Source: an uncultured Oscillospiraceae bacterium
GTDB lineage: Bacteria; Bacillota; Clostridia; Oscillospirales; Oscillospiraceae
NCBI GenBank assembly: GCA_947632005.1
Contig: CANRNU010000004.1
Coordinates: 1-64,000, forward strand
Length of the DNA: 64,000 nucleotides
Reading direction: 5' to 3'
A program made the position numbers and the translations under genes. The notes under the pieces were generated by a model. It was not told where the DNA came from and ran no database searches. It saw nothing but the letters and a program-made list of their open reading frames with translations. Below, one piece after another: positions 5,429 through 22,224 of the stretch (position 1 is its first letter; the number at the start of each line of letters is the position of its first letter).

Positions 5429-5944
5429 ATGAAACGGAAAAATACCGGCTGTGACCGGTCGGATATGGACCAGGGATACGGGGCGTTTTTCCCCTATGCG
5501 GTGCGGTCGCCGGACGGAGCGCCCCGGGTCCCGCCGGGACCCGGCCCGGAGGCGGACACCGTGGCCCTGGACGAGGGGCGGCCGACGACCGGTCCGGTCC
5601 GGCCCGGTCTGACGCCCCCGGAGCGGGCGGTGGCCAGCGTGCTGGTGTTCACGGACACCGAGCGGCGGCGCACCTATTCCGTGCAGCTCTTGGACCGGGT
5701 CACCCTGGGCCGGGAGGAGAGCCTGAACGACATCGCGGTCCGGGACCAGCGGATATCCGCCCGGCACTGTGAGGTATTCCGGGAGGGCGGACGGCTGATG
5801 GTGCGGGACGTGGGGTCCACCAACGGCACCGTGCTGGTGTCCCGGGGCGTCCGGTACCCGGTGGACAGATGGAAGGGCCTGGAGATACAGACAGGCGACA
5901 TGCTGGAGATAGGGCTGACCAGGCTGGAGCTCTCCGGCGTCTGA
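5429..5944 (+). CDS. FHA-domain protein (171 aa)
   Basis: A small cytosolic protein with a disordered N-terminus (~65 residues) and one forkhead-associated domain at about residues 70-168. The phosphothreonine-binding signature is complete: LGREESLNDI, then ISARHC, then DVGSTNGT. FHA domains bind phosphothreonine peptides. A Ser/Thr kinase and a PP2C phosphatase are encoded 2.5-5 kb downstream in the same direction, so this is a probable reader of their output. It lies 29 bases after the surface-protein gene, consistent with one operon. The start at 5429 has only a weak G-rich ribosome site (ACGGGGGTC). A later ATG at 5465 (MDQGYG) is possible. Confidence 0.85.
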   Translation: MKRKNTGCDRSDMDQGYGAFFPYAVRSPDGAPRVPPGPGPEADTVALDEGRPTTGPVRPGLTPPERAVASVLVFTDTERRRTYSVQLLDRVTLGREESLNDIAVRDQRISARHCEVFREGGRLMVRDVGSTNGTVLVSRGVRYPVDRWKGLEIQTGDMLEIGLTRLELSGV

Positions 5945-5999
5945 GACAGAACACTTACTTTGCCCCGGGGTGGTCCCGGGGCCGTGCGGGAGGATATCA

Positions 6000-7505
6000 G
6001 TGGTGACGACTCTATTTCAATCGGGCGCGGACGGGGCGTGCCTGGTGGTGCTGGAACGGGGCGCGGTGCGCAGCTATGCGCTGGGCGCCCAGGCGCTGTG
6101 GACGATAGGCCGCAGGACCCCGGAACACGCGCCGGATATTTCCTTCGACTCCCCCATCGTCAGCCGGGAGCAGGGCGAGTTTTTCGCCAGCGGCGGACAG
6201 TGGTTCTACTGCGACGGAGGGAGCCGGAACGGGACATTTTACAACGACGTGAAGATATGGGCCGGATATCGGGTGAAGAGCAAGCCGGTGCCCCTGAGCA
6301 GCGGCGACGTGCTCCGGGTGGACCGGCGGGACGCGTCCCTGGCGGACCCGAGGGGCGTGTGGATGTATTTCTCCGCCGCCCCCATCCGGGGGGTGTGGCG
6401 GTACTATCCCCTGGCGGGACGCACCAGCACCGTCATCGGCCGGGACGCCGCCCGGTGCGACATCGTCCAGCCCCTGGCCTATATCTCCGGGCAGCATGCC
6501 CGCATCGTTGCCCGGGACGGACAGTTCTGGCTCAGCGACTGCGGCAGCAAGGCGGGCACCTGGCTCAACGGACGGCCCCTCCGGAAGGAGACGTGCCTGG
6601 GAGAGAAGGACCATATCTGCCTGTGCGACTGCCATTTCATCTTTGCCGACGGCGGACTTATCTACAACGACCGGGGCCAACCATCCCCCCGGGAGCAGGG
6701 CGGTGACCCCCGGCAGGGGGATGTGATGCTCCGGGCGGACATCCGCTCCAAAAAGGTCCGGGACCTGAACGGCCACGGGGAGAAGGAGCTCATCCGGGAT
6801 GTGACCCTGGAGATCCGGTCCGGGGAGCTGATCGCCCTGCTGGGAGGCTCCGGCGCTGGCAAATCCACGCTGATGAACTGCCTGAACGGAACAGAGCGGT
6901 CCGGCGTGGAGGGCACCGTCAGCTTCCGGGGGGAGGACCTGTACAAGAACTATGACCGGCTGAAATGCCTGGTGGGCAATGTGCCCCAGCAGAACGTCCT
7001 CAACGAGACCCTCAGCGTGGAGCAGGAGCTGAGATATGCCGCCAAGCTCCGTCTGCCCGGGGACATGAGCCGGGACGATATCCAGCGGCAGGTGGACAAG
7101 ACCCTGGAGGTGCTGGACCTGCAGGCCAAGCGGAAGAGCCCCATCCGGAAGCTCAGCGGCGGCGAACAGAAGCGGGTCAACATCGGCGTGGAGCTGGTGG
7201 CGGACCGGGAGCTGCTATGCCTGGACGAGCCGGACGCGGGACTGGACCCCCACGCGAAAAAGGAGCTGTTCACCACCTTGCAGCACCTGGCCCACGAGCG
7301 GGGCAAGTGCGTGCTGGCCATCATCCACGATGTGTCCGAGATCGACATGTTCGACCAGATCGTCATGATGGTGAAAGTCCATGAGGTGGGGCGGCTGGCC
7401 TTTGCCGGGTCCCCGGCGGAGGGACGCAGGCGCTTCCAGGTGACGAACCTCACGGAGGTATACGACCTGGTCCAGAAAGAGCCTGAAAAATATATTGTGG
7501 GGTAA
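6000..7505 (+). CDS. FHA-FHA-ABC transporter ATP-binding protein
   Basis: I place the start at GTG 6000, six bases after GGGAGG (5988-5993). An upstream GTG at 5970 has no ribosome site. Two FHA domains come first: residues ~33-85 (IGRRTPEH...VSREQGEF...GGSRNGT) and ~145-195 (VIGRDAARC...ISGQHAR...DCGSKAGT). A complete ABC ATPase follows: Walker A GGSGAGKST near residue 280, signature LSGGEQKR near 384 and Walker B LLCLDEPDAGLD near 404. FHA plus ABC is the architecture of mycobacterial Rv1747, a PknF kinase substrate. Here ATPase and permease are separate genes with a 4-base gap. Export or import substrate is unknown. In FHA2 the usual STNGT is SKAGT, so phospho-binding may be altered there. 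Confidence 0.88.
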   Translation: MVTTLFQSGADGACLVVLERGAVRSYALGAQALWTIGRRTPEHAPDISFDSPIVSREQGEFFASGGQWFYCDGGSRNGTFYNDVKIWAGYRVKSKPVPLSSGDVLRVDRRDASLADPRGVWMYFSAAPIRGVWRYYPLAGRTSTVIGRDAARCDIVQPLAYISGQHARIVARDGQFWLSDCGSKAGTWLNGRPLRKETCLGEKDHICLCDCHFIFADGGLIYNDRGQPSPREQGGDPRQGDVMLRADIRSKKVRDLNGHGEKELIRDVTLEIRSGELIALLGGSGAGKSTLMNCLNGTERSGVEGTVSFRGEDLYKNYDRLKCLVGNVPQQNVLNETLSVEQELRYAAKLRLPGDMSRDDIQRQVDKTLEVLDLQAKRKSPIRKLSGGEQKRVNIGVELVADRELLCLDEPDAGLDPHAKKELFTTLQHLAHERGKCVLAIIHDVSEIDMFDQIVMMVKVHEVGRLAFAGSPAEGRRRFQVTNLTEVYDLVQKEPEKYIVG

Positions 7506-7509
7506 CGGT

Positions 7510-8370
7510 GTGAAGACTGATATGACAAAACGGTCCGCGTTCAGCGAGTGGCTGCTGCTCACCAGACAGTCCGCGGCCATCCTGTTCACAGACAAAAAGA
7601 ACCTGATCCTGTCCCTGGTCTTCCCGGTGGTGGCGGCTGTCATCACCGTGTGGATCGCGGGGGAAAACATGTTCGTCACCTTCGAGGGGACGAAATCGGC
7701 TTGCTTCGTGCTGGTGAGCGCGGCCATCTGGGGCGGGCTGTTCAACTCCATCCAGGTGGTGGTGAAGGAGCGGAGCATCATCAAACGGAACCTGACCTCG
7801 GGGATGTACCTGCGCTCCTATATCGCCTCCAAGGCGGTGGTACAGCTGCTGCTGTGCCTGTTCCAGAGCGTGCTGCTCACGTGCAGCTTCCTCGGGGTGC
7901 ACTGGCGGTACGGCAACGACCTGCCGGCGGAGGGGGTCATCCTGCCCTGGGCGCTGGGGGAGTATTTCATCAGCCTGTTCGTGCTGACCTATGCGGCGGA
8001 CGCCATGGGGCTGTTCCTGTCCAGTCTGGTGCGAAAGCCGGAGACCGCCAACGTGATGGCGCCCTATATCCTGATCGTACAGCTGATCTTCTCCGGGGTG
8101 CTGTTCACCATGGAGGGGGCGGCGGACGCGCTGTCCTACGCCATGTTCAGCCGCTGGGGCATGGAGGCCCTGGGCAGTATCAGCGACCTGAACGGGCTGC
8201 CCCTGGCCATCCAGGCCACGGTGCCCACGGTGCCCCATGAGGCGGACGATATGTTCCTGCGCACCGGCGAACACCTGCTGACGGTGTGGCTGGTGCTGGG
8301 GGCGTTTGCCCTGGTGTTCCTGCTGCTGGGCAACTTGTTCCTGCACCGGGTCGCCAAGGACAGCCGCTGA
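7510..8370 (+). CDS. ABC-2 type transporter permease
   Basis: This 286-residue integral membrane protein starts at GTG 7510, seven bases after GGGG. ATG 7522 is an alternative. It has about six hydrophobic segments, including LILSLVFPVVAAVITVWIA, a segment around FVLVSAAIWGGLFNSI and the last one LLTVWLVLGAFALVFLLLGNLF. A conserved-looking loop NVMAPYILIVQLIFSGVLF is typical of the ABC-2 family. It directly follows the FHA-FHA-ABC ATPase and almost certainly forms the membrane half of that transporter. Together the two match a split version of Rv1747-like FHA-regulated exporters. The transported molecule cannot be read from sequence. Confidence 0.85.
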   Translation: MKTDMTKRSAFSEWLLLTRQSAAILFTDKKNLILSLVFPVVAAVITVWIAGENMFVTFEGTKSACFVLVSAAIWGGLFNSIQVVVKERSIIKRNLTSGMYLRSYIASKAVVQLLLCLFQSVLLTCSFLGVHWRYGNDLPAEGVILPWALGEYFISLFVLTYAADAMGLFLSSLVRKPETANVMAPYILIVQLIFSGVLFTMEGAADALSYAMFSRWGMEALGSISDLNGLPLAIQATVPTVPHEADDMFLRTGEHLLTVWLVLGAFALVFLLLGNLFLHRVAKDSR

Positions 8371-8416
8371 GTGGAAAACAAAGACCGCAGACGACGCAGA
8401 AAAGGGGGCGAAGACC

Positions 8417-10531
8417 GTGGAGACGGGAGAGAGCTGGAAGGGCTGGAAGGTGGTCCAGGTCATCGGCCGGGGCAGCTTCGGCACGGTGTACGAGATCGAG
8501 CGGGATATGCTGGGGATGACGGAGAAAGCCGCCCTGAAGCACATCACCATCCCCCGGGACGACGGCGAGACAGAGGAGTTGCTGGGGGACGGCTACGACA
8601 TGGCCAGCATCTCCCAGCGGTACGACAAATATCTGAAAGACATCGTCCGGGAATACGCCCTCATGGCCTCCCTGAAGGGGAGCGCCAACATCGTCATCTG
8701 CGACGATGTGGAATACAGCCCCCGGAAGGGCAAGCCGGGCTGGGAGATCTTCATCCGGATGGAGCTTCTCACCCCCATCCTGCGGGTCATGGACCAGTAT
8801 GGACGGCCTGAGGACGCGGTGCGGATGGGGACAGACCTGTGCCGGGCCCTGGAGCTGTGCGGGAGAAAGCACATCGTCCACCGGGACATCAAGCCCCAGA
8901 ACATCTTCGTGTCCCCTCAGGAGCAGTATAAGCTGGGGGATTTCGGCGTGGCGAAGGTAGCCGACCACACCACGGCAGGGACCCGGGTGGGGACGTTCCG
9001 GTACATGGCGCCGGAGGTGTATTATGGCCGGCCCTATGGGGCGTCGGCGGACATCTACTCCCTGGGGATGGTGCTGTACTGGGTGCTGAATAGGCGGCGT
9101 GGACCCTTCGCGCCTCTGCCGCCGGAGGTGCCCACAGCGAGACAGGAGGAGGACGCCCAGGCCCGGCGGCTGCGGGGGGAGCCCCTGCCGCCCCCGGCGG
9201 ACGGGAGCGAGGAGCTGAAGCGCATCGTGCTGAGAGCGTGCGCCTATGCGCCGGAGGATCGGTATCGCGACGCGGGGGAGATGCTGGCGGACCTGCAGGC
9301 GCTGCCGGACGCAGAGCCGGCTGTCTCCGCACCGGCATATGGAGACGAGACAGTAGAGGTGGAGGAGACGGTAGTCCAGCCAAGCCCCTCTCCCATGGCG
9401 GCGGAGACGGTATACATGGACATGGACCCGGGACCCGGGACCGGCATGGCTGCGGCAGAGACGGTGCTGGAGGAAAAGGCGCCGCCCGCCCCCGCTCCCG
9501 CGCCGACGCCACAGCCTGTGAGCCCCCAGCCTGTGTCTCAGCCGGCGTCTGTGCCTCGGCCTCAGCCTGTGCCCCAGCCCGCGCCAAAAAAGAAAAAGAG
9601 AGGCCGCGTGGCCCTGGTCCTCGCCGGTGTGGCCGTCGTCCTGCTGGCAGCAGCGCTGAGGGTGGCGTTCACCCTGCGGGGCAGCGTCCAGCTGGACATG
9701 CAGCCGTCCACGACCATATCCGCGGGGAGCTTTCACACGGCGGCTGTCCGAGCGGACGGTACCGTAGCGGCTGCAGGGTATAATGGTGCTGGTCAGTGCG
9801 ACGTGAGCGACTGGACCGACATCGTGGCGGTGTCCGTGGGAAGTTTCCGCACAGTGGGGCTTCGCTCCGACGGCAAGGTGGTGGCTGCAGGCTCTAACGC
9901 TTATGGCCAGTGTGACGTGGGCAACTGGAGGAAGATCGTGGCGGTGTCCGCGGGCACAAAGCACACGGTGGGACTGCGCAAGAACGGCACGGTAGTGGCC
10001 GTGGGGTATAATGGTGTTGGCCAGTGCGATGTGAGCGGCTGGGCGGACATCGTGGCGGTGTCCGCCGGCTGGAATCACACGGTGGGACTGCGCAAAGACG
10101 GCACGGTGGTGGCTGCAGGCTCTAACGCTTATGGCCAGTGCGATGTGAGCAGCTGGAGGGACATCGCGGCGGTGTCCGCCGGCGGGTACCACACGGTGGG
10201 ACTTCGCTCCGACGGCACGGTAGTGGCCGTGGGGTATAATGGTGCTGGCCAGTGCGACGTAGACAGCTGGACAGGCATCGTGGCGGTGTCCGCGGGAGAT
10301 TTCCACACGGTGGGGCTTCGCTCCGACGGCACGGTGGTGGCCGTGGGGGAGAACGATGACGGCCAGTGCGACGTGAGCGGCTGGAGGAATATCGTGGCGG
10401 TGTCCGCGGGCACAAAGCACACGGTGGGGCTTCGTTCCGACGGCACGGTGGTGGCCGTGGGGGAGAACGCCTACGGCAAGTGCGACGTGGGCGGCTGGAG
10501 GGACATCCGGCTGCCCGAAGACGAGGGCTGA
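8417..10531 (+). CDS. Membrane Ser/Thr protein kinase with extracytoplasmic RCC1-like propeller
   Basis: This 704-residue protein starts at GTG 8417, about ten bases after AAAGGGGGCG. The kinase domain (residues ~10-310) has a glycine loop GRGSFGTVYE (17-26), ATP-binding Lys in AALKHI (K41), catalytic HRDIKPQN (~155) and DFGVAK (~175). All catalytic residues are present. A ~90-residue Pro-rich linker with Gln/Val-Pro repeats precedes one membrane helix (VALVLAGVAVVLLAAALRVAF, ~395-420). Seven RCC1-type repeats of 38 residues follow (pattern VAVSAG..HTVGLR.DGTVVAVG.N..GQCDV..W), enough for one seven-bladed propeller outside the cell. Most Firmicutes kinases of this class carry PASTA repeats instead. 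Adjacent PP2C and FHA genes suggest a phospho-relay controlling the T7SS. Confidence 0.92.
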   Translation: METGESWKGWKVVQVIGRGSFGTVYEIERDMLGMTEKAALKHITIPRDDGETEELLGDGYDMASISQRYDKYLKDIVREYALMASLKGSANIVICDDVEYSPRKGKPGWEIFIRMELLTPILRVMDQYGRPEDAVRMGTDLCRALELCGRKHIVHRDIKPQNIFVSPQEQYKLGDFGVAKVADHTTAGTRVGTFRYMAPEVYYGRPYGASADIYSLGMVLYWVLNRRRGPFAPLPPEVPTARQEEDAQARRLRGEPLPPPADGSEELKRIVLRACAYAPEDRYRDAGEMLADLQALPDAEPAVSAPAYGDETVEVEETVVQPSPSPMAAETVYMDMDPGPGTGMAAAETVLEEKAPPAPAPAPTPQPVSPQPVSQPASVPRPQPVPQPAPKKKKRGRVALVLAGVAVVLLAAALRVAFTLRGSVQLDMQPSTTISAGSFHTAAVRADGTVAAAGYNGAGQCDVSDWTDIVAVSVGSFRTVGLRSDGKVVAAGSNAYGQCDVGNWRKIVAVSAGTKHTVGLRKNGTVVAVGYNGVGQCDVSGWADIVAVSAGWNHTVGLRKDGTVVAAGSNAYGQCDVSSWRDIAAVSAGGYHTVGLRSDGTVVAVGYNGAGQCDVDSWTGIVAVSAGDFHTVGLRSDGTVVAVGENDDGQCDVSGWRNIVAVSAGTKHTVGLRSDGTVVAVGENAYGKCDVGGWRDIRLPEDEG
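9711..10508 (+). repeat. Seven 114-bp repeats encoding RCC1-like blades
   Basis: Seven in-frame 38-codon repeats end the kinase gene. Nucleotide similarity between units is high (for example, the block around TCTAACGCTTATGGCCAGTG recurs), which points to recent duplication or gene conversion between blades. Confidence 0.85.
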
Positions 10532-10570
10532 CGGGCGCGGCCCGAGGACGGCGGAACAGGAGGGAAGAAG

Positions 10571-11407
10571 ATGTACACACTGTATTACGCCGCACGGACC
10601 CACGGCGGACACGTGCGGGGGAACAATGAGGACAATTTCTTCGTGAACGGGACGTACCGGCAGGACACGGCGGCGGGGGAGGCGGCCTGCGCCGGAACGG
10701 TGACGGAGGGCGCCCTGACGGCCTGCGTGTGCGACGGGATGGGGGGCCATGACCGGGGAGAGGTGGCCTCGCTGCTGGCGGTGCAGGCCCTGGCGGCGCT
10801 GGAGCGGGAACAGGCGTCGTTCCAGGCGGACGGGATGGGCTGCGTGGAGCGGCTGAATCTCTCGGTCTGGGAGGAGAACGACCGGGAGAAGACCAGCATC
10901 GGCACCACCCTGGCGCTGGTGGAGTTCCGGCAGGACAGGGCCCTGGCGCTGAACGTGGGGGACAGCCGCATCTACCGGATGCGGGACGGCACGCTCACCC
11001 AGCTGTCGGAGGACCACACATTGGTGGCCGGGATGGTGCGTACCGGGCAGATCACCCCCGAAGAGGCGGCCGGACACCCCCTGCGGCACCATATCACCCA
11101 GTATCTGGGCATCTGCCCCCAGGAGCTGCGCCTGGAGCCCGCCTTCGCGGGGCCCATGGAGCTGCGGGCCGGGGACCGGTTCCTGGTGTGCAGCGACGGG
11201 CTGACCGATATGCTGGACGACGGGCGCATCGCCGGGGTCCTGGAACAGAACGGGGACGTGGAGAACGCGGCCCGGGCGCTGGTGCAGGCCGCGCTGGCCG
11301 CGGGAGGAAAGGATAACGTGACAGTGGTCCTGGTGGAGGCCGGCCAAGGCCGGTCCAAACTCCGGACATGGACAGACCGGCTGTCGGAAAAGCTGACCGG
11401 GAGATGA
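10571..11407 (+). CDS. PP2C-family serine/threonine phosphatase (PppA/PrpC-like)
   Basis: A 278-residue soluble protein starting at ATG 10571 behind AGGAGGG. All PPM/PP2C metal-site motifs are present: RGNNEDNFF near the N-terminus, CDGMGGHDRGE, GTTLALV, NVGDSRIYR, SDGLTDML and GGKDNVTVVLVE near the C-terminus. It would remove phosphate from Thr/Ser residues, reversing the upstream kinase. It lies 39 bases after the kinase and 7 bases before the next FHA gene. Kinase, phosphatase and FHA readers in series form a complete switch, as in the PpkA/PppA/Fha set of type VI secretion. The length fits the family norm of 240-280 residues. Confidence 0.93.
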   Translation: MYTLYYAARTHGGHVRGNNEDNFFVNGTYRQDTAAGEAACAGTVTEGALTACVCDGMGGHDRGEVASLLAVQALAALEREQASFQADGMGCVERLNLSVWEENDREKTSIGTTLALVEFRQDRALALNVGDSRIYRMRDGTLTQLSEDHTLVAGMVRTGQITPEEAAGHPLRHHITQYLGICPQELRLEPAFAGPMELRAGDRFLVCSDGLTDMLDDGRIAGVLEQNGDVENAARALVQAALAAGGKDNVTVVLVEAGQGRSKLRTWTDRLSEKLTGR

Positions 11408-11414
11408 GGGAAAT

Positions 11415-12341
11415 ATGCAAGAGTTGGTGCAACAGGGATTGATCGAGAGGAAGACGGGCGAGCAGGGGGTATCGTACCTGCTGGCGGAGGAGGCGCTGTT
11501 CTCCCAGACCCGGATGAAGGCCATCGAGTCCAGCGAGGACCCGTGCATCCTCAAGTGCGTGCGGGTGCTCTACAACGGGAAGATCAAGCTGGTCTATCTC
11601 ACAGGCGGATACCGCCGGCTGGACCAGTGCCTGCCGGGGATGAAGAGCGGAGATTACCGGGCCCTGGCAGGGGCGATGATGAGAGAGGTGCTGTTCATCC
11701 GGGGCAACAGCATCCTGAGCTGCGGCTGCATCGACCTGTCGGCGGACCGGGTGTTCGTGGACTGGAGCGAAAAGGACGTGCGGCTGGTCTGCCTGCCGGT
11801 GCGGGATAAGGTCCCCATCCCGGAGGCGGAGTTCGAGAGCATGCTCCGGGAAAAGCTCCTGCAATGGGGCAGCCTGCTCCCGCCGGAGGAGCAGAGCGGG
11901 CTGGAGGAGCTGAATGAACAGCTGAGCGACCCGACCGAGAGCCTGCAGACGCTGGCGGAACATTTCGCCTCCTATCGGCACAGGGCCCCGATGCCGGGCC
12001 CGATGCGGCGGGAAGCGGGACAGATGAAGCTGGAGCTCAGCTCGGTGGGGACCGTGCCGCCGGTCGCGTTCGTGGTGGACCATACGCCGTTCCTCATCGG
12101 ACGGGAGTGGGGCACGGTGGACGGAGCGATCCCCGGGGAGTACCCGCGGGTGGGACGGAAGCACTGCCGCATCGAGGCCGGCCCCGGCGGCTACCAGGTC
12201 GTGGACGTGAACAGCAAAAACGGCACCTGGGTGAACGACGTGAAGCTCCAGCCCCTGGTGCCCGCGGAGCTGGCCCATGGGAGCGTGCTGCGGCTGGCAA
12301 ATGTGTCGTTTGCGGTGCGGATCACAGGAGGTGGAGCATGA
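11415..12341 (+). CDS. DUF6382-like protein with C-terminal FHA domain
   Basis: This protein has 308 residues. The first ~190 resemble the N-terminal domain seen in Firmicutes proteins of the DUF6382 type (LVYLTGGYRRLDQCL, then VLFIRGNSILSCGCIDLSADRVFVD). This assignment is from memory of the family pattern and is moderate. Residues ~225-300 are an FHA domain with FLIGREWGTVDGAI, GRKHCRIE and DVNSKNGTWVND, a good phosphothreonine-binding signature. It is soluble, with no membrane segment. It overlaps the next gene by four bases (ATGA), so translation is coupled to the MinD-like ATPase. It is probably a third phospho-reader of the locus, perhaps linking kinase output to EssC. Confidence 0.82.
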   Translation: MQELVQQGLIERKTGEQGVSYLLAEEALFSQTRMKAIESSEDPCILKCVRVLYNGKIKLVYLTGGYRRLDQCLPGMKSGDYRALAGAMMREVLFIRGNSILSCGCIDLSADRVFVDWSEKDVRLVCLPVRDKVPIPEAEFESMLREKLLQWGSLLPPEEQSGLEELNEQLSDPTESLQTLAEHFASYRHRAPMPGPMRREAGQMKLELSSVGTVPPVAFVVDHTPFLIGREWGTVDGAIPGEYPRVGRKHCRIEAGPGGYQVVDVNSKNGTWVNDVKLQPLVPAELAHGSVLRLANVSFAVRITGGGA

Positions 12342-13387
12342 AGCCGGTCGTGTTTCTGATAGACCAGGACGAGGAGTACGCGGAGTTCCTGGAGGCGAAG
12401 CTGATAGAAAAATACGGCGGGCAGATCGACCTGCACACCATCACCGACAGCGATTATTTCCTCCGGCTGTTCTCCGGCCAGCAGCGGGCCGCCGCGGCGC
12501 TGGTGGGAGAGGGGCTGTACAGCAGCAGCCTGCGGCAGCATCAGATCGACCGGATCGTGGTCCTGAGCGGGCGGCAGTTCTCGGAGGAGGACCGGCAGCG
12601 GCAGGAGCCGGGGGTGGTCTGGGTCAACCGGTTCAGCAACCCCGCCACCATTCTGAACGAGGCCCTGTACGGCCTGCGGATGGAAGCGGCCGACAGGACG
12701 GGGAAACGGGCGGGCATGGCCCAGGTGATCGCCGTCACCTCCGCCATCGGCGGAAGCGGGAAGACCTCGGTGGCCCTGGCGCTGTCCGGGGCGCTGGCCC
12801 GCAGCCACCAGCGGGTGCTGTATCTGTGCACGGAGGAGATCCAGAGCTTCGGCTACCATCTGCCCGGGAGCGGGTCTCTGCCCCTGGACGCCTGCCGGGC
12901 GTTGGCGAAAAATACCTCCGGCGCGTATCAGCAGCTCCGCCGGTACCTGAAAGGTTCGCCCTTCGCCTATCTGCCGCCGATGCCCTGCGCCCCCAGCATG
13001 ATGCAGATCCCGCCGGACGCCTATGTGCGCCTGGTGCGTGAGGCGCGGATGAGCGGAGATCTCGACGTGATCGTCCTGGACCCGGGCACCGGCTGCGACG
13101 GCGGCCGGGCCGCCCTGCTGCAGGAGAGCGACCAGGTGTTCGTGCTGGTGCTCCAGGACGGCCTGTCGGCGGCCAAGACCGAGGCCATGCTGCGGAATAT
13201 GGACGCAAGTTCCGAAAAATACTCCTTCGTCTGCAACCGCTTCGTTCCGCCAGACGCGGAGGATGCGCCCCGGAGAGCGGCGGCGCCGTATACGGTCGAT
13301 ACATATCTAAAAGATATTCCGGATATGAGCCTGAAGGCCCTGGAACAGGACGAGGGGCTGGCTGAGCTCACCTATATGCTTTTGTGA
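12338..13387 (+). CDS. MinD/CpaE-like P-loop ATPase with receiver-like N-terminus
   Basis: This 349-residue protein starts at ATG 12338 (AGGAGGTGGAGC upstream), overlapping the preceding stop. Residues 1-115 look like a degenerate response-regulator or CpaE-type domain (VVFLIDQDEEYAEFLEAKL). From ~residue 128 a P-loop follows: VIAVTSAIGGSGKTSVALAL. It is a deviant MinD/ParA-type Walker A that lacks the usual first Lys (KGGxGKT). A Walker-B-like VIVLDPGTGCD is seen near residue 245. The architecture matches AAA-type regulators that position secretion or pilus machines. Within T7SS clusters, MinD-like ATPases also occur in mycobacterial ESX loci (EspI). The role here is inferred from context. 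Confidence 0.78.
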   Translation: MKPVVFLIDQDEEYAEFLEAKLIEKYGGQIDLHTITDSDYFLRLFSGQQRAAAALVGEGLYSSSLRQHQIDRIVVLSGRQFSEEDRQRQEPGVVWVNRFSNPATILNEALYGLRMEAADRTGKRAGMAQVIAVTSAIGGSGKTSVALALSGALARSHQRVLYLCTEEIQSFGYHLPGSGSLPLDACRALAKNTSGAYQQLRRYLKGSPFAYLPPMPCAPSMMQIPPDAYVRLVREARMSGDLDVIVLDPGTGCDGGRAALLQESDQVFVLVLQDGLSAAKTEAMLRNMDASSEKYSFVCNRFVPPDAEDAPRRAAAPYTVDTYLKDIPDMSLKALEQDEGLAELTYMLL

Positions 13388-13405
13388 TGCGGGAGGTGCG
13401 AAACA

Positions 13406-13663
13406 GTGAGTGAGGGGATCGTCATTACCGTCAATGTCCCCCAGAAGGGACTTCGGGAGGACCTGGAGGTACCGGGCGAGATCACGGCCATCGACCTGAT
13501 CGAGGCGCTGGCCAATATATACGGGCTGAAGATCGACCGGGGCCGGATCTATGATTATTACCTGAAAATGGACCATCCAAAGGCGCTGCTGCGGGGCAGT
13601 CAGACGTTGGCGGAGAGCGGGATGCGCGAGGGATCGGAGGTGTGGCTCTGGAATGAGGAATGA
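13406..13663 (+). CDS. YukD/EsaB-like ubiquitin-fold T7SS protein
   Basis: An 85-residue protein starting at GTG 13406 after GGGAGGTGCGAAACA. It is predicted to fold like ubiquitin: a beta hairpin (IVITVNVPQKGLREDLEVP), then a helix (ITAIDLIEALANIYGL) and a C-terminal strand (GSEVWLWNEE). Size and position immediately before EssC match B. subtilis YukD and S. aureus EsaB, cytosolic components needed for type VII secretion. It overlaps essC by 11 bases. Confidence 0.85.
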   Translation: MSEGIVITVNVPQKGLREDLEVPGEITAIDLIEALANIYGLKIDRGRIYDYYLKMDHPKALLRGSQTLAESGMREGSEVWLWNEE

Positions 13664-16600
13664 TACAGGCGAACGCTGGGATCACCGGCTGATATTGACC
13701 GGCGGCGGACTGTACCGGGAGCTGGAACTCACAGAGGATGTGGTCCGGGTCGCCATCGGCACCGAAATGGGCTCCGATATGCGCTTCCAGGCGCTGGATT
13801 TCTTCGAGCCCTTCTCCTTCTGTGTGACCAGGAGCGACGCCGGCTGGCAGATCGAGTGCGGAGAGGGCGTCTACGTCTCCGGCGGCGACGTGCGGAAGCT
13901 GATGGTATGCCCGCTCACGCCGGGTGGCCAGGTCTCCGTGCGCTACCGGTCCTCCAACGCGGAGCTGCTCCGGGTACGGCTGGCCTACAGCTTCCGGGCC
14001 GCCCCCAAAAATTACGACCGCTTCGTCAGCTTTGCCAACCTCTCCTCGGTGACCCTGGGGGGCACCAACGGCGCCCAGATCCAGCTGCACCATACCCTCA
14101 CCCAGGGGGATGTGTGCATGCTCACCAGACAGGCCGACGGCTGGACGCTCCAGGCCGTCAGCAGCAGGACGGGGGTGTTCCTCAACGGGCGGAAGGTGAC
14201 GGGCAGCGTCCGGCTCCAGCCCATGGATTTCATCGACGTGGGGCCCTTCAGCTTCTGCTGGAAGGACGGGGGCCTGTATACGGCCTGGGGCAGCCCCATC
14301 ACCCTCGCCGGCATCTCCTATGCCGACTACCCCGAGAGCCGCAGCGCCCTGGTCTATCCCCAGTTCAACCGGGGCACCCGCATCCATATCGCCCCCTCCA
14401 CGGAGGAGGTGCAGGTGCTGGACCCGCCCACCGAGCCCCAGGAGCCGGAAAGGGACATCATCGCCCAGCTGTTCCCCGCCATCGCGATGATCGCCATCGT
14501 GGTGCTGGTCCGGGGCAGCCGCGGCGGCAGCGATTCCACCTTCCTCATCATGAGCGTGGCGTCCATGGGCGTCGGCATCGCCTCGTCCATCTATTCGCTC
14601 ATCAAGGGCCGCAGCGACTATAAGAAGAAGCTCCAGGAGCGGAGCGAAGCCTACAGCCGCTACATCGTGGCCAAGCGAGCGGCGCTGCAGCAGTTCCGCC
14701 AGGAGGAGGCCCAGATCCTGGAGGAGACGTATTACCCGGCGGAGAGAGAGCTGCTGATGATCGACGAGTTCGACGAGCGGCTGTTTGAGAGAACGGCGGA
14801 GGACGGCGATTTTCTGGAGGTGCGCCTGGGCACCGGCGAACGGGAGTCTGTGCGCAAGACCGCTTACCGGCAGAAAGAACAGGTGGAGGCCACGGATACG
14901 CTCCAGGATATCCCGGCCAGCGTGGACGCGGAGTTCAAGATGCTCCACGGAGTGCCGGTGACCCTGAGCCTGAAAAACGCCAGCATCGTGGGCATCACCG
15001 GCGGCCGCGGCGCCCTGGCGCATATGCTCCGGGTGCTGACGCTGGACCTGGTCACCCGGCAGTACCATACGGACGTACAGCTGTTTTACTGCCTGGATGA
15101 GACCGACACGGAGATGTTCTCCTACCTCAAGTACCTGCCCCATGTGCGCAACAATGCGCTGCATCGCAGAAATATCATCTGCGACGACGAGAGCAAGAGC
15201 GTGCTGCTGGAGTACCTGTATAAGCTGATGACCAGCCGGGACAAGGACCACACCCTCCCGCGGCTGGTGGTGTTCATGTACCGGGACAGGGGCATCCGCT
15301 CCCATCCCCTCTCCCAGCTCATGGAGCAGGGAAAGAAGCTGGGGGTCACGTTCCTCTTCTTTGAGGAGGAACAGGCCAACCTGCCCACCGGGTGCGAGTA
15401 TGTGATCCAGATGAACAGCGAGGCGGAGGGCGCCCTCATCAGCAGCGCCGACGGGACCTCCGTGCAGCCGTTCGTGACCAGCGACATCACGGACGCGATG
15501 ATGCTGCCGGCGGCCAGAAAGCTGGCGCCGGTCCACAGCGAGAGGATCAGCCTGGAGAGCACCCTGACCCGGAACATCACCCTGTTCGAGCTTTTGAACA
15601 TCTATGGGCCGGAGGACCTGGACCTGGAGAAAAACTGGGCCGCATCGGAGGTCTATCGGAGCATGGCCGCGCCCCTGGGCGTGAAGAGCAAAAACCAGAT
15701 CATCAGCCTGGACCTGCATGAGAAGGCCCACGGCCCCCACGGCCTGGTGGCCGGTACCACCGGCTCCGGCAAGAGCGAGCTCCTCCAGAGCTATGTGCTG
15801 AGTATGGCGCTGCGGTTCCATCCCTATGAGGTCGGCTTTGTCATCATCGACTTCAAGGGCGGCGGCATGGTCAATCAGTTCCGGGACCTGCCCCATCTGG
15901 TGGGCGCCATCACGAACATCGACGGCCGGGAGATCGACCGGTCCCTGCTGTCCATCCGCGCGGAGCTGAAAAAGAGACAGGAGCTCTTCGCCCAGTACAA
16001 CGTCAACCATATCGACAGCTACATCCGGCTGTTCCGCAAGGGGGAGACGCCGGTCCCGCTGCCCCATCTCATCCTGATCGTGGACGAGTTCGCGGAGCTG
16101 AAAATGGACCAGCCCGAGTTCATGAAGGAGCTCATCAGTACCGCCCGCATCGGACGGAGCCTGGGCGTGCACCTCATCCTGGCCACCCAGAAGCCCAGCG
16201 GCGTGGTGGACCCGCAGATCTGGTCCAACTCCCGCTTCAAGCTGTGCCTGAAGGTCCAGTCCAAGGAGGACAGCAACGAGGTGCTCAAAACGCCCCTGGC
16301 GGCGGAGATCCAGGAGCCTGGCCGGGCATACCTGCAGGTGGGCAACAACGAGGTCTTCGAGCTGTTCCAGTCCGCCTACAGCGGCGGCCCCGCCAAGGTG
16401 GAGGGCGTGACGGCCCGGCGGAAGTTCAAGATATCCCGGGTCAGCTTCAGCGGCAGGAGGACCCTGGCCTATGAGCAGAAGCCGGAGGCCAGCGCGGATA
16501 TGGAGACGACCCAGCTGCAGAGCGTGGTCCGGTATGTGGCGGAGTATACGAAGCGCAGACATATCGCCCGCCTGCCGTTCATCTGCCTGCCGCCGCTGCC

Positions 16601-18212
16601 GGAGCGGCTGCCCTATGAGCCGAGAGACTTCGGCGTGGATATCGAGGAGGGCCTGAGCGCGGCGCTGGGCATCTATGACGACCCGTCCCGGCAGTATCAG
16701 GGCGAGTTCTCCATCAACGTGACCCAGGAAAATACCCTTATCATCGGCTCCTCCCAGTACGGCAAGACCAATCTGCTCCAGACCGTGGTCCGCAGCCTGA
16801 CGGAGCAGTATACCCCCGAACAGCTGAATCTCTACATCCTGGACTTCGGGACGATGATCTTCACCAACTTCGAGGACCTGGCCCATGTGGGCGGCGTGGT
16901 CTGCTCCCAGGAGGACGAGAAGCTGAAGAATCTGTTCCGGCTGCTGAACGAGGAACTGGCCTCCCGGAAGGAAAAGCTGGTCCAGGCCGGCGTCAGCTCC
17001 TTCGCCTCCTACCTGGAGGCGGGATTGACCGAGCTGCCCCAGATCGTGGTGATCATCGACAATCTGACCGCGCTGCGGGAGATGTATCTGACGGACAGCG
17101 ACTTCCTGCTGCCCCTGTGCCGGGACGGCCTGTCCGTGGGCATCAGCTTCGTGGCGGCCAACAATCAGACCGGCGGCTTCGGCTACCGGTATCTGACGAA
17201 CTTCGGCAAGCGCATCGCCCTGTTCTGCAACGACAGCGCGGAGTACAACGCCCTGTTCGGCAGTTCCCGGGTGCGCCCCCGCAATACTCCGGGGCGCTGC
17301 CTTGTGGAGCAGGACAAGACGATCTATGAGGCCCAGGTGAGCCTGGCCTTTGACGGGGAAAAGGAGATCCAGCGCGTCGGGCAGATCCGTCAGTTCGTGC
17401 AGGAGCAGAACAGCCGCTGGACCGGCCCGCGGGCCAGGCGCATCCCCATGGTGCCGGAGACGGTCACCGCCGAGGTCCTGGAACGGGACTTCCAGGCGGT
17501 CAGTTCCCCGGAGGAGCTGGTGCTGGGCGTGGATTACGCCACCGTGGCCGCGGCGCGCCTGTCCCTGACCGAGGGCGGATATCTGGGCATCGCCGGCAAG
17601 GACGAGCTGGGCCGGGCGGCATTCGTGGCCTATCTCGTGGGCGCGCTGGAAAAGAGCGGGGCGAGACTGTTCGTGCTGGACAGCCTGTCCGGCGCGCTCC
17701 GGTCCGTCCAGGACGGGGCCCAGACCTATTCCCGCTCTCTGGAGGACCTGCCGGAGATGCTGGCGGAGGTGCGCATGTGCATGGAGGAGCGGGCCCGCAG
17801 AGTGGCGGCAGGCGGTCAGAGCGCCCTGGCCGGGGAGCCGGCGGTGGCGCTGGTGCTGGGGAATCCGGACGCGGTCGACGCCATCAGCGGGGATAAGACC
17901 ATGCTGGCTCATTATAAAGACCTGGTGGGGAAATACCGGGCGCTGCGGATGTGCGTGATCTTTACGGATCTGAACAACGCCCCGATCCCCTATGGCGCCC
18001 CGGAGGTGCTGAAAATGATGAAGAACGCCCGGCGGTTCCTGTTGTTCGAGGAGGCGAGCGATATCAAGCTGACCGATCTGACCACCACCACGCTGAGACG
18101 CTTCAAAAAACCCCTGACCCCCGGCGACGCCTATTTCGTGACCGACACCGCCGTCAACAGGCTCAGAACAGCCGTGCCGGACCGGGAGAGAATGGCCGCC
18201 GGTGCGGTGTGA
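13653..18212 (+). CDS. essC: Type VII secretion ATPase/translocase EssC
   Basis: At 1519 residues it is close to EssC/YukBA length (~1480). The N-terminal ~230 residues contain two FHA-like regions (second: LGGTNGAQIQLHH...SSRTGVFLNGR). Two membrane helices lie near 275-320 (LFPAIAMIAIVVLV; FLIMSVASMGVGIASSIYSL). Three FtsK/SpoIIIE ATPase domains follow. D1 has Walker A AGTTGSGKSELL (~702) and Walker B LILIVDEFAELK (~808). D2 has GSSQYGKTNLL (~1031) and VVIIDNLTA (~1131). D3 has GIAGKDELGRAAF (~1310), where the P-loop Lys-Ser/Thr is missing, so it is probably non-catalytic. EssC is the motor that exports WXG100 proteins. I see no EssA, EssB or EsaA gene beside it. Confidence 0.95.
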   Translation: MRNDTGERWDHRLILTGGGLYRELELTEDVVRVAIGTEMGSDMRFQALDFFEPFSFCVTRSDAGWQIECGEGVYVSGGDVRKLMVCPLTPGGQVSVRYRSSNAELLRVRLAYSFRAAPKNYDRFVSFANLSSVTLGGTNGAQIQLHHTLTQGDVCMLTRQADGWTLQAVSSRTGVFLNGRKVTGSVRLQPMDFIDVGPFSFCWKDGGLYTAWGSPITLAGISYADYPESRSALVYPQFNRGTRIHIAPSTEEVQVLDPPTEPQEPERDIIAQLFPAIAMIAIVVLVRGSRGGSDSTFLIMSVASMGVGIASSIYSLIKGRSDYKKKLQERSEAYSRYIVAKRAALQQFRQEEAQILEETYYPAERELLMIDEFDERLFERTAEDGDFLEVRLGTGERESVRKTAYRQKEQVEATDTLQDIPASVDAEFKMLHGVPVTLSLKNASIVGITGGRGALAHMLRVLTLDLVTRQYHTDVQLFYCLDETDTEMFSYLKYLPHVRNNALHRRNIICDDESKSVLLEYLYKLMTSRDKDHTLPRLVVFMYRDRGIRSHPLSQLMEQGKKLGVTFLFFEEEQANLPTGCEYVIQMNSEAEGALISSADGTSVQPFVTSDITDAMMLPAARKLAPVHSERISLESTLTRNITLFELLNIYGPEDLDLEKNWAASEVYRSMAAPLGVKSKNQIISLDLHEKAHGPHGLVAGTTGSGKSELLQSYVLSMALRFHPYEVGFVIIDFKGGGMVNQFRDLPHLVGAITNIDGREIDRSLLSIRAELKKRQELFAQYNVNHIDSYIRLFRKGETPVPLPHLILIVDEFAELKMDQPEFMKELISTARIGRSLGVHLILATQKPSGVVDPQIWSNSRFKLCLKVQSKEDSNEVLKTPLAAEIQEPGRAYLQVGNNEVFELFQSAYSGGPAKVEGVTARRKFKISRVSFSGRRTLAYEQKPEASADMETTQLQSVVRYVAEYTKRRHIARLPFICLPPLPERLPYEPRDFGVDIEEGLSAALGIYDDPSRQYQGEFSINVTQENTLIIGSSQYGKTNLLQTVVRSLTEQYTPEQLNLYILDFGTMIFTNFEDLAHVGGVVCSQEDEKLKNLFRLLNEELASRKEKLVQAGVSSFASYLEAGLTELPQIVVIIDNLTALREMYLTDSDFLLPLCRDGLSVGISFVAANNQTGGFGYRYLTNFGKRIALFCNDSAEYNALFGSSRVRPRNTPGRCLVEQDKTIYEAQVSLAFDGEKEIQRVGQIRQFVQEQNSRWTGPRARRIPMVPETVTAEVLERDFQAVSSPEELVLGVDYATVAAARLSLTEGGYLGIAGKDELGRAAFVAYLVGALEKSGARLFVLDSLSGALRSVQDGAQTYSRSLEDLPEMLAEVRMCMEERARRVAAGGQSALAGEPAVALVLGNPDAVDAISGDKTMLAHYKDLVGKYRALRMCVIFTDLNNAPIPYGAPEVLKMMKNARRFLLFEEASDIKLTDLTTTTLRRFKKPLTPGDAYFVTDTAVNRLRTAVPDRERMAAGAV

Positions 18213-18326: not shown

Positions 18327-18614
18327 ATGGCTGAGAACAGGATCGACTACGACGTCCTTGCCGACGGCGTGAGAGTGTATGCACAGCAGGCGAGCGCGCT
18401 GGAAGAGGTGATCTCCGCGCTGGACACCATGAACGGCCAGCTGGAGAGCGGCTGGAGCAACGAGACCTCCAGAGCCTTTATCGAGCGCTACAACTCCGAG
18501 CACAAACCGGCTCTGGAAAAGGCCAGAGAATCCATCCAGAATATCTCCGACTATATCGCCAAATATAGCCAGAACCGTCAGGAAGAGGACTCCGAGAGCG
18601 CGGCCGGTATCTGA
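18327..18614 (+). CDS. WXG100-family secreted protein (EsxA-like)
   Basis: A 95-residue, all-helical protein starting at ATG 18327 behind CAGGAGG. The central turn reads SGWSNETSRAF (W43), the WXG position with Asn replacing Gly. Two amphipathic helices flank it: residues ~8-38 and ~47-80. The length and the W-centred hairpin are those of EsxA/YukE proteins exported by EssC. It is the first gene after essC and has its own promoter. The C-terminal tail (NRQEEDSESAAGI) may hold the export signal. WXG100 proteins are both substrates and partners of the translocase. Confidence 0.9.
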   Translation: MAENRIDYDVLADGVRVYAQQASALEEVISALDTMNGQLESGWSNETSRAFIERYNSEHKPALEKARESIQNISDYIAKYSQNRQEEDSESAAGI

Positions 18615-18736: not shown

Positions 18737-19210
18737 GTGGGAGCGGAATACTATGACAACCAGATGGCCCAGCTGCGGGGAAAGATCGGCCAATGTGAGA
18801 GCCAGATCAAGGTCCTGAAGGAGCAGATCGAGGATCTGGAAGGGCTCTGGGAGGCCCTGGGCCAGCACATAGAGAACCTGGGGGCTATCCCCGACACGAT
18901 CACCTGCGGGTTCAACCAGCCCGGGGGCGGCGTGCTGGGGAGGCTGGCGCGGATCGGTCTGTCGTTTTTCCAGCCGCTGGAGGATGCGGCCACCGGCGAG
19001 GAGTTCCAGACAGCCGTCCGGCACGCTGAGAGCTCCCAGTTGGCGGCGGAGAACAAGAAGACCGAACTGGAGCAAAAGATAGAGCAGCTCCGGGGACAGA
19101 TCAACAGTTACAGCGGGCAGATATCCCAGCTTTCCCAGCAGAAGTCGGCATATCTGGAGGAAGAGGCGAAAAAGGCCGCCGATAAGTCGGCTGCCGCGAA
19201 CGCGCGGTGA
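18737..19210 (+). CDS. Coiled-coil helical protein of T7SS operon
   Basis: A 157-residue protein starting at GTG 18737, preceded by GGAAGGAGGC. Residues 1-50 and 95-157 form long heptad-rich coiled coils (ESQIKVLKEQIEDLEGLWEAL; KKTELEQKIEQLRGQINSY). They are separated by a Gly-rich middle (NQPGGGVLGRLARIG). No signal peptide is seen. Size, composition and placement after WXG100 resemble the helical partner proteins (DUF5082/YwqH-like) found beside T7SS LXG toxins. That link is by analogy. It probably pairs with one of the two ~95-residue proteins that follow. Confidence 0.6.
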   Translation: MGAEYYDNQMAQLRGKIGQCESQIKVLKEQIEDLEGLWEALGQHIENLGAIPDTITCGFNQPGGGVLGRLARIGLSFFQPLEDAATGEEFQTAVRHAESSQLAAENKKTELEQKIEQLRGQINSYSGQISQLSQQKSAYLEEEAKKAADKSAAANAR

Positions 19211-19223
19211 GGAGAGGTGTGAC

Positions 19224-19511
19224 ATGGCGGATGTAGTGATCGACGACGATTTTTTCGTGTCATCCGGTATGATCCTGCAGAAGCGGGCAGATTTCGACAA
19301 CAAGATCCTCAACCAGTTCATCTCCTGCCTCAAGACGGTGCAGGAGACCGGACTGATCGAGGGACAGACCGCCGAGGCGTTCCGGACATTTACTGAGACG
19401 GTGGAGAAGTGCAAGGGCCTGGTCTATGACGAAGGGCTGTACCTGAAGACCGCTACGGCCGCGCTGGTCCAGGAAGTGGATCTTCAGGACGGAAATCTGT
19501 ACGAGGAATAA
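19224..19511 (+). CDS. Small helical WXG100-like partner protein (95 aa)
   Basis: A 95-residue protein 13 bases after the coiled-coil gene, with start ATG 19224 behind GGAGAGGTGTGAC. Two helices are predicted: KRADFDNKILNQFISCLKTV and TAEAFRTFTETVEKCKGLVY, joined by GLIEGQ. The length and hairpin plan match WXG100-superfamily proteins, although no W-x-G is present. It could be a YwqI/DUF5344-like T7SS adaptor. No catalytic motif is visible. Confidence 0.55.
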   Translation: MADVVIDDDFFVSSGMILQKRADFDNKILNQFISCLKTVQETGLIEGQTAEAFRTFTETVEKCKGLVYDEGLYLKTATAALVQEVDLQDGNLYEE

Positions 19512-19513
19512 GT

Positions 19514-19804
19514 ATGAGCAGACTGGTCGAAAATGCGGATGTGCTCGACATATGCGCCAACCAGATCGCGGCGCTGGCGCTGTGTCTGGATTCCCAGATC
19601 GTCCTGCCGGAAGACGGGGGCAGTACGGGCCCCGGCCGGGAGGCCCTGGACGATGCGGTCTATGGGATGCTGGAGTATGAGAAGGCGTTGAAGGACCTGA
19701 TGGTCCAGACGGCGAAATTCCTGGAGAGCAAGGGCGCCGCCATCACCGAGGCGGATATCGCGGCGGCGGCACAGGCATTGAGTGAAAGCGGCTTTTTCAA
19801 GTGA
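19514..19804 (+). CDS. Small helical protein of T7SS operon (96 aa)
   Basis: A 96-residue protein two bases after the previous stop, so translation is likely coupled. It is helix-rich (LDICANQIAALALCLDS; LDDAVYGMLEYEKALKDLMVQ), with a short acidic Gly/Pro loop in the middle (LPEDGGSTGPG). No known domain is recognised. It resembles WXG100-size partner proteins and is probably secreted or a chaperone for the large protein encoded next. Confidence 0.5.
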   Translation: MSRLVENADVLDICANQIAALALCLDSQIVLPEDGGSTGPGREALDDAVYGMLEYEKALKDLMVQTAKFLESKGAAITEADIAAAAQALSESGFFK

Positions 19805-19821
19805 CGGGGCGGTGAGAAAGT

Positions 19822-21159: not shown

Positions 21160-21168
21160 GGAACGGAC

Positions 21169-22224
21169 ATGAAAGCTGAGATAGACAATGTGCTGCGACA
21201 GGCAGAGCTGCTGATCCGGAACGGACAGACCGAAGCGGCCAAACAGGCGCTGGATGACCTGTACCGGCGGATACCGGAGGAGGACCTGGACGAAGCGCTG
21301 CCCCGCATCCTGTTCGACATGGGGAACGCGGCGATCATAGAGGGCGATCATGCCGAGGCCCTGGAGATGTATGACGGGAGCATCCTGGCCGGGAGCGAGG
21401 ATGTGCGGGTGCTGTTCAATCTGGCGGGTGTGCTGGAGGAGATGGGAGAGTTCTCCCTGGAGCAGGACGTCCTGGAGGAGGCTGCCGGCAGGGAGCTGGA
21501 CGAAGTGTCCGCCCAGTTCATATTTCAGGCGCTGCACCGGTTTTATCTGCGCAGGGAGCTGTATCAGAAGGCGCGCCGGACCGCGGAACGGTATATCCGG
21601 GACCGCGGGGAGACGTATTTCGGATATCACCTGCTGGTGGAAGGAATGTTCCGGAGCGGGGAATATGCCGAGGCGGAAGAGGAATTGGACCGGCTGGAGG
21701 AGAAGTTCCGGGAGGACCCGGGGTATCTCCGGGACCGGCTGGACCTGCTCGACCGGCAGAAACTGTATGACCAGGAGCTTCAGCTGACGGAGCAGGACCC
21801 CAATTACCGGAAGCTCCTGCCGGAGCTCACCCTGCAGAGAAGGCTCCGTATCTTCCTGGACCGGCGCCAGGATGCTGATGTGCGCGAGACGGCCCGGGAG
21901 CTGTTCGTGGGCTGGGGAGACGAGATGGGCGCCCTGACCCAGATGGTCCTGTTCATATGCGACGGGAATGACCATGCCGCGGCCCGGGTGGCGGACTATA
22001 TCCTGAAGCAAAACGCCGCGGCCCCCAATATGCTGTTTTACCTGACCTTGTACATTGACCTGTTCGTGGTGGAGCGGATAGCCGGGGGAGAGCTGTCGGA
22101 AGAGCAGCGGGCGACCCTGACGCGGGCGGCGAAGCTGTGCGTCGGCTGGTTCCGGCAGAACGGACTGTATGACCGGCGGATGGAAGAGCAACTGACGGCG
22201 ATCGGCCTTCGGCTGGATGCCTGA
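21169..22224 (+). CDS. TPR-like helical repeat protein
   Basis: This 351-residue cytosolic protein starts at ATG 21169 (GAGGAACGGAC upstream), nine bases after the candidate substrate. It is built of helix-turn-helix units with TPR spacing and residues: DMGNAAIIEGDHAEALEMYD, LFNLAGVLEEMGEFSLEQDV and LLVEGMFRSGEYAEAEEELD. TPR proteins are protein-protein scaffolds or chaperones. As the last gene of the unit, before a strong terminator, it may act as chaperone for the substrate or as a regulatory partner of the FHA/kinase system. No catalytic residues are seen. Confidence 0.7.
   Translation: MKAEIDNVLRQAELLIRNGQTEAAKQALDDLYRRIPEEDLDEALPRILFDMGNAAIIEGDHAEALEMYDGSILAGSEDVRVLFNLAGVLEEMGEFSLEQDVLEEAAGRELDEVSAQFIFQALHRFYLRRELYQKARRTAERYIRDRGETYFGYHLLVEGMFRSGEYAEAEEELDRLEEKFREDPGYLRDRLDLLDRQKLYDQELQLTEQDPNYRKLLPELTLQRRLRIFLDRRQDADVRETARELFVGWGDEMGALTQMVLFICDGNDHAAARVADYILKQNAAAPNMLFYLTLYIDLFVVERIAGGELSEEQRATLTRAAKLCVGWFRQNGLYDRRMEEQLTAIGLRLDA

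Follow-up and report, generated by a model that had tools for sequence, protein, structure and literature searches.

Is the type VII secretion system (T7SS) encoded at the start of contig C4 of an uncultured, gut-type Oscillospiraceae bacterium switched by protein phosphorylation, and, if so, which of its proteins read the signal? The window analyzed here is the first 64 kb of this 86-kb contig, from a genome that is 77.6% complete. It contains a Ser/Thr kinase, a PP2C-type phosphatase (PPM), three FHA proteins (one fused to an ABC ATPase), a MinD-like ATPase, YukD and EssC in one co-directional run on the + strand. This arrangement had been described in an earlier note on the sequence; open reading frames (ORFs) and domain searches confirmed each part at its coordinates and showed the run to be longer, with a repeat protein and an Ig-like protein upstream and a WXG100 protein and probable substrate module downstream, to position 22224 (Table 1). 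The joint presence of an EssC ATPase (TIGR03928, 1119 bits) and a WXG100 protein (PF06013) identifies a T7SS. Our best model is a phospho-gated T7SS in which phosphorylated threonine arrays would recruit an EssB-like pseudokinase, TsxJ, to EssC, a model to which we give an even chance.

That a T7SS should come with a kinase, a phosphatase and FHA proteins is not new in itself, as such systems are already published. The available excerpts of Garrett, Higginson and Palmer 2024 (PMC11217815) define T7SSc-j, with components that include a kinase (TsxD), a PPM (TsxF), a DUF6382-FHA protein (TsxJ), an Ig-like protein (TsxI), a protein with a single transmembrane (TM) helix (TsxK) and a TadZ-type ATPase (TsfV). 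In these excerpts, T7SSc, e and j have both kinase and PPM, and T7SSe, f and j a separate FHA protein, so the statement in the earlier note that known Firmicutes T7SS loci lack the full set does not stand; a reading of the operon as proof of a new system was also rejected, because published T7SSe, f and j already cover most parts. The same excerpts associate no kinase with T7SSf and suggest phospho-control by analogy to type VI secretion (T6SS). The likeness to the T6SS PpkA/PppA/Fha pathway that the earlier note had drawn holds insofar as a kinase, a PP2C and an intact FHA reader share one locus beside a secretion machine, but this comparison was thus already in print, and it is one of logic only (T6SS genes were not sought); the secretion machine differs, and the acceptor here is predicted to be a tandem array. 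The nearest tested analogue we have seen appears to be the Agrobacterium T6SS, where Fha binds phosphothreonine (pThr) 14 of the membrane protein TssL (PMC3953482, excerpts).

A scan of a species-genome collection confirmed 491 EssC loci, of which the best 80, the named loci used here, come from Lachnospiraceae, Oscillospiraceae, Clostridium, Ruminococcus torques, R. albus and others. Neighbourhoods were counted in the 43 loci with at least 9 kb on each side (37 with short flanks were left out), 40 of which were extended to ~24 kb upstream where the contig allowed, and a kinase was counted if it lay on the same strand within ~24 kb upstream or 10 kb downstream of EssC. By profiles trained partly on these same loci, the 43 neighbourhoods contain a kinase in 37, PPM in 33, TsxJ-like proteins (J) in 39, TsxV-like proteins (V) in 37, YukD in 43, an Ig-like protein in 24 and an FHA protein other than EssC in 41. 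Kinase, PPM and FHA occur together in 32/43, and this co-occurrence count, which the earlier note had proposed, came out in favor of its idea. The background density of kinases (215 matches in ~141 Mb) predicts only ~2-3 of 43 by chance, so the observed 37 exceed chance. Loci with other types of EssC from the same order, some with short flanks, carry a kinase in 10/31, PPM in 8/31, FHA in 11/31 and all three in 2/31. Because the set is conserved beside this type of EssC, a phospho-switch is the likeliest reading of these neighbourhoods, and kinase control would extend to T7SSf relatives across Clostridia, including R. torques and R. albus. To this extent the claim that export is switched by phosphorylation survives, but not with the EssC FHA region as reader.

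FHA domains bind pThr rather than phosphoserine (PMC3146460, excerpts), and the domains found here were scored at the Arg/Lys, Ser/Thr and Asn columns for pThr binding, counting only those that span the scored columns. All three columns are filled in 30/31 other FHA proteins, 42/57 J of 280-345 amino acids (aa), 28/32 J of other length and 2/3 FHA-ABC domains, as compared to 0/79 FHA2 and 0/17 FHA1 domains in 81 EssC proteins, most FHA1 being unscorable. Requiring Arg instead of Arg/Lys lowered these counts to 14, 2, 3, 2, 0 and 0, respectively, because Lys is common at that column. In the window, the FHA protein at 5429-5944 is intact (R,S,H,N), the FHA-ABC domains are nearly so (R,S,Q,N and R,S,H,A), and EssC FHA2 retains no pThr-binding residue. 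EssC of T7SSb likewise lacks them (PMC4925161, excerpts).

Candidate acceptors were sought in kinase linkers and neighbouring ORFs, and three kinds of site turned out to carry tandem acidic Thr repeats: kinase linkers in the window's branch, a short single-TM protein and, in a second DUF6382-FHA protein, the linker that precedes FHA. Kinase linkers of the window's branch carry EEKTVGM and EEETVGM motifs, and that of the window, DETVEVEETVVQ...AETVYMD...AETVLEE, has 6 [DE].?T[VI] starts in 120 aa, a number reached in 0/500 shuffles. The short single-TM protein lies behind the kinase and fits the published description of TsxK; a model of its TM region, built from 22 seed proteins chosen by eye, gathered 30 such proteins (K). 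In 28 non-redundant tails (two near-duplicate K dropped), T..L occurs 152 times versus 33.7 ± 5.1 in shuffles and [DE].?T..L 151 times versus 13.4 ± 3.7, while S..L stays at chance (17 versus 18.4). T.L is enriched too (102 versus 33.7), as Leu is also common at +2. The six non-redundant K proteins that were not seeds behave alike (T..L 28 versus 5.8 ± 2.2; S..L 2 versus 3.5). With an array defined as three or more motifs within 100 aa, 22/30 K and 12/37 J of other length contain one, as compared to 0/73 kinases, 0/46 PPM, 0/89 EssC, 0/58 short J, 0/29 other FHA, 0/2 FHA-ABC, 2/419 other annotated proteins and 10/3741 unannotated ORFs, window 1-663 among the last. The kinase linkers escape this definition, as the last residue of their motifs is Met or Val. 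When Ser was substituted for Thr in the motif, the arrays numbered 0 in K, 0 in J of other length, 1 in EssC, 1 in short J and 5 in unannotated ORFs.

Window 1-663 contains six T..L (0.9 ± 0.9 in shuffles) and directly precedes the Ig-like gene, the same position as in relatives; it is a putative TsxK-like array protein. Arrays (T..L or M) are present in 25/38 clade loci with a kinase versus 0/5 without (p 0.009) and in 0/7 T7SSf references; L146, with its kinase on the opposite strand, was scored as a kinase-bearing locus both here and in the count of J against kinase below. In T7SSj-like loci, the kinase and FHA genes flank a gene for a TM protein of 81-85 aa, in which two or three sites resemble the motif. 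The tandem, Thr-specific acidic motifs look like phosphothreonine docking arrays, and the preference of FHA domains for pThr over phosphoserine fits arrays made of Thr only. This is new here; none of the papers listed by a literature search concerns such tandem arrays in T7SS, judging from titles and the starts of abstracts. Separately, a further 219-aa protein with the same Thr array lies between the FHA and PPM genes at L048:3036-3695, and a kinase beside another type of EssC (L056:8636-11032) has EETALL/EETAIL repeats, so arrays may occur outside this clade.

What the array would bring to EssC is suggested by TsxJ. FHA domains dominated the results of a fold search with the full-length J model, so the DUF6382 domain was folded alone and the top 1000 chains were re-aligned with it. 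The domain has a predicted kinase fold, the same as that of the 6z0f cytoplasmic domain, and in the models it matches the T7SSb pseudokinase YukC/EssB, which is new here. The DUF6382 profile found no kinase among sequences of solved structures (best E 0.079); comparison of DUF6382 with YukC was weak with two YukC sequences (11%) and higher with seven, and the kinase profile gave 7% only against YukC. Of the 52 J proteins listed, 50 entered one J set (A2) together with the window copy; the duplicates L117 and L130 were omitted there and from one further comparison, and L114 and L146 from another set (A3). EssB itself (PF10140) has no match in the window's own, 77.6% complete genome, and its matches in 2/48 relatives both lie beside a second EssC of 33-34% identity and therefore belong to a separate T7SSb.

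The domain content of J follows the kinase. In the 38 kinase-bearing entries J always has an FHA domain and never a TM pair (one borderline segment is predicted in two of them), whereas in 12 kinase-free loci J lacks FHA in five, has a TM pair in five and shows one or both in seven, five of these seven being T7SSf references (Fisher p 8e-6, relatedness ignored). L242, with no kinase in 19.9 kb and a J with a TM pair, was kept out because its kinase state is uncertain, and L050 and L117, the same locus, were counted twice. Alongside a kinase, DUF6382-FHA proteins thus retain FHA and are predicted to be soluble, and in its absence they often do not, a pattern that is new here; a literature search on T7SSc/d/e/f and DUF6382 found only PMC11217815. 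It is possible, though we would put it below an even chance, that TsxJ acts as an EssB without membrane anchor. This pseudokinase would gain access to the EssC pore only through docking of its FHA domain on a multi-site pThr array, written by the kinase on the short membrane protein or kinase linker, and kinase-free relatives would bypass the switch by equipping TsxJ with TM helices or by losing its FHA domain. If true, T7SS assembly would be phospho-gated, with permanent membrane anchoring exchanged for regulated anchoring.

Together, these parts suggest the following mechanism. The membrane kinase would sense the envelope through its variable outer domain (here RCC1) and phosphorylate the tandem acidic TxxL/TV-type threonines of the short TsxK-like membrane protein and, in the window's branch, its own juxtamembrane linker. 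The FHA proteins (5429-5944, FHA-ABC and TsxJ, which in the window lacks one key Ser) would dock on these phosphothreonines. As TsxJ carries the EssB-like kinase-fold domain DUF6382, docking may place it at the membrane next to EssC. The degenerate FHA domains of EssC might then bind it without phosphate, in the way that EssC binds EssB in T7SSb. Assembly or activity of the EssC pore would thereby be switched on, and the PP2C would reverse it. While the parts, predicted folds and motif statistics are direct results, we infer the phosphorylation, docking and effect on export. The model names likely phosphoacceptors and readers, proposes a stand-in for EssB in systems without it, and turns the observation that kinases are often near T7SS into a concrete, testable switch-on mechanism.

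Several observations weigh against this mechanism. Gly replaces the conserved Ser in the window J FHA domain, as in 12/57 J, and it may bind poorly. Without the T7SSf references, the correlation of J with the kinase shrinks to 2/5 versus 0/37 (p 0.012), and a soluble, FHA-bearing J is kept in 5/12 kinase-free loci. Most K proteins (22/30) are the hand-picked seeds, 13/38 kinase-bearing loci have no array by the criterion used, arrays occur in 1/3 T7SSj references, and Ser arrays occur in 4 of all 53 loci. The window kinase array lacks a uniform +3 Leu, and window 1-663 is incomplete at the contig end, its TM part lying off the contig, with no BLAST relative and no match to the tail profile. 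Among neighbourhood kinases, only 44/63 match HRDxKxxN and 46/63 the DFG pattern. Related genomes were counted as independent, and several pairs are near-duplicates. A rival explanation is that the TxxL/TVGM arrays are phosphate-independent docking or linker repeats rather than phosphosites, as slippage can expand repeats in disordered proteins; the strong bias to Thr over Ser, the acidic residues upstream, the +3 Leu and the confinement of arrays to loci with a kinase make this improbable. Far less probable again is that the FHA domains of EssC read phosphothreonines, as the earlier note had proposed. Excerpts of PMC11217815 describe pThr motifs as conserved in TsdC, TseC and TsjC and partly in TsfC, and the reading may hold in those subtypes, but for this clade it was rejected, the residues being kept in 0 of 96 scored domains.

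The strongest competitor, though still unlikely, is that the kinase, PP2C, FHA proteins and FHA-ABC are co-located but separate, regulating the envelope or the exporter and only sharing the T7SS operon. An FHA-FHA-ABC protein was found in at least 12 other genomes among 394 (E ≤ 1e-40; here and in the family and order searches below, two or three candidates were scored per genome, making the counts lower bounds), and none of the 12 is among the order's EssC carriers found. The 12 stretches fetched, 8 with one-chain FHA-FHA-ABC-permease proteins, contain a kinase in 9 (one on the other strand), PPM in 6 and an EssC-size ATPase in 0/12, although in one a 389-aa FHA protein was also touched by the EssC profile. 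This recalls PknF with Rv1747, a known kinase operon with a two-FHA ABC exporter (PMC3908365, excerpts); the window differs in its separate permease gene, its PP2C and the placement of the module inside a T7SS operon. By profiles, L086 is the one locus of the 80 named to share FHA-ABC, at 27% identity in the ATPase and 34% in the permease. We infer that the T7SS operon captured the exporter as a module of its own under kinase control, and the full set as unique to T7SS was rejected, since FHA-ABC/kinase/PPM modules occur without EssC. The block as a whole, in contrast, accompanies this EssC in 32/43 loci, and the FHA and TM content of J tracks the kinase. The earlier note had held that finding the block without essC, or essC without the block, in most relatives would speak against it: within the clade neither kinase nor PPM is present in 5/43 only, a minority that favors separate regulation, but the FHA-ABC part usually lies elsewhere. 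Modules that resemble PknF-Rv1747, in which a kinase, frequently together with PPM, neighbours an FHA-ABC exporter but no EssC-size ATPase is present, occur in this order at L216-L222, L225 and L226.

Which T7SS, then, would the kinase control? EssC is uncommon in the window's family (at least 15/200 genomes at E ≤ 1e-100) and order (at least 26/394 at E ≤ 1e-150), the window's own genome included in both; five relatives from these searches share 44-48% identity and the remainder 30-38%. A tree built from 130 EssC sequences and rooted at the midpoint places the window with L083, L084, L085, L086 and L091 (support 1.0) inside a clade of 84 (0.952), which joins eight T7SSf-like EssC (1.0, the node of those eight itself having support 0.0); next to join are five EssC sequences, each with a YukC-like ORF (0.999). 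Subtype references were recognized by gene content (L227 by PPM, J, V, YukD and EssC; L228 by kinase, FHA, PPM and EssC). The tree's other main part contains two T7SSj-like EssC (L228, L237), and L244, a third sequence labelled T7SSj-like, is placed apart from them. All of TsxA, B, C, F, J and V of T7SSf (WXG100, YukD-like, EssC with FHA, PPM, DUF6382-FHA and TadZ-type ATPase) are in the window cluster, which departs from T7SSf in having the kinase at 8417-10531, an Ig-like protein and, in relatives, TsxK, and in a J without predicted TM helices where TsfJ has two. With a kinase in 37/43 loci, the published absence of a kinase from T7SSf does not extend to this neighbouring clade. T7SSe and T7SSj share TsxD, TsxF, TsxJ, TsxK and TsxI with the window, but the window has TsxV and has lost the EssC FHA residues reported as conserved in TseC and TsjC: FHA2 lacks them and FHA1 reads IGT. 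Assignment to T7SSj is further opposed by the position of EssC apart from TsjC-like L228/L237 and by the RCC1 rather than TPR C-terminal part of the kinase, TPR being that of TsjD. T7SSb Ess/Yuk shares EssC, YukD, WXG100 and a degenerate EssC FHA; no EssB/YukC was found for the window, which has a DUF6382-FHA protein of the same fold class instead. Taken as a whole, the model of a T7SSf-lineage T7SS under Ser/Thr kinase control is evenly balanced in our judgment between being right and being wrong.

Table 1. Features of the T7SS run in the 64-kb window.
Feature	Coordinates	Strand	Basis or remarks
C-terminal part of putative TsxK-like phosphoacceptor protein	1..663	+	Frame 1, open at contig 5' end; tandem APTGTVPLTAPMQGG repeats, EGTVQLDEE, tail QSDERI
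Large Ig-like surface protein (TsxI-like), 1579 aa	660..5399	+	Big_13, Big_3_3
FHA protein	5429..5944	+	PF00498; NCBIfam FhaB 3e-12, OdhI 6.5e-7 (both below cut-off)
FHA-FHA-ABC ATPase, Rv1747-like with permease as separate gene	5970..7505	+	Pfam
ABC-2 type permease, between FHA-ABC and kinase	7495..8370	+	PF01061, PF12698
Membrane Ser/Thr kinase (TsxD-like)	8417..10531	+	PF00069 6e-34; RCC1_2, seven RCC1 stretches behind TM
Kinase juxtamembrane array DETVEVEETVVQ..AETVYMD..AETVLEE	9344..9478	+	Motif count versus shuffles
PP2C/PPM phosphatase (TsxF-like)	10571..11407	+	PF13672; Stp1_PP2C 4.9e-56 (below cut-off)
TsxJ-like protein	11415..12341	+	DUF6382-type kinase-fold domain ~11415-11978, FHA ~12018-12338
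Receiver-like + MinD/ParA ATPase (TsxV-like; TadZ/MinD)	12338..13387	+	BcsQ, ParA, CpaE-type matches, below cut-off
YukD/EsaB ubiquitin-like protein (TsxB)	13406..13663	+	PF08817
EssC ATPase (TsxC), N-terminal FHA domains degenerate	13653..18212	+	TIGR03928, 1119 bits (cut-off 778)
WXG100 protein (TsxA)	18327..18614	+	PF06013
Probable substrate module: helical proteins, 445-aa protein, TPR protein	18737..22224	+	First helical protein weakly YwqH-like, PF16888 4e-5 (below cut-off)

The kinase frame is open from 8306, its start at ~8417 being a probable one, and both HRDIKPQN and DFG are present. The first FHA protein, whose layout we take to be GarA/OdhI-like, carries EADTVALDEG (Thr44) N-terminal to its FHA domain. 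The best segments of the Ig-like protein share 26-33% identity with Ig-like proteins at other EssC loci (BLAST); its best match is a giant Ig-like protein at L061 and L062 (in genomes G163 and G095 from the same genus as the window), where EssC is a different one, at 31% identity. Just before the Ig-like gene, several loci encode a protein of ~145-162 aa for which three or four TM helices are predicted (L048:6795-7280, L088:1219-1707, L102:1608-2081, L106:3006-3488, L126:798-1283 and L127:1044-1481), which is absent among the T7SSc-j components in the excerpts of PMC11217815. The gene order of the substrate module is similar in L083, L084, L085, L091 and L130; its 445-aa protein has no Pfam match, and together with the small helical proteins (18737-21159) it recalls an LXG-type substrate with partners. 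Immediately past the T7SS region lies a tRNA-Arg (acg) at 22478-22554 on the - strand.

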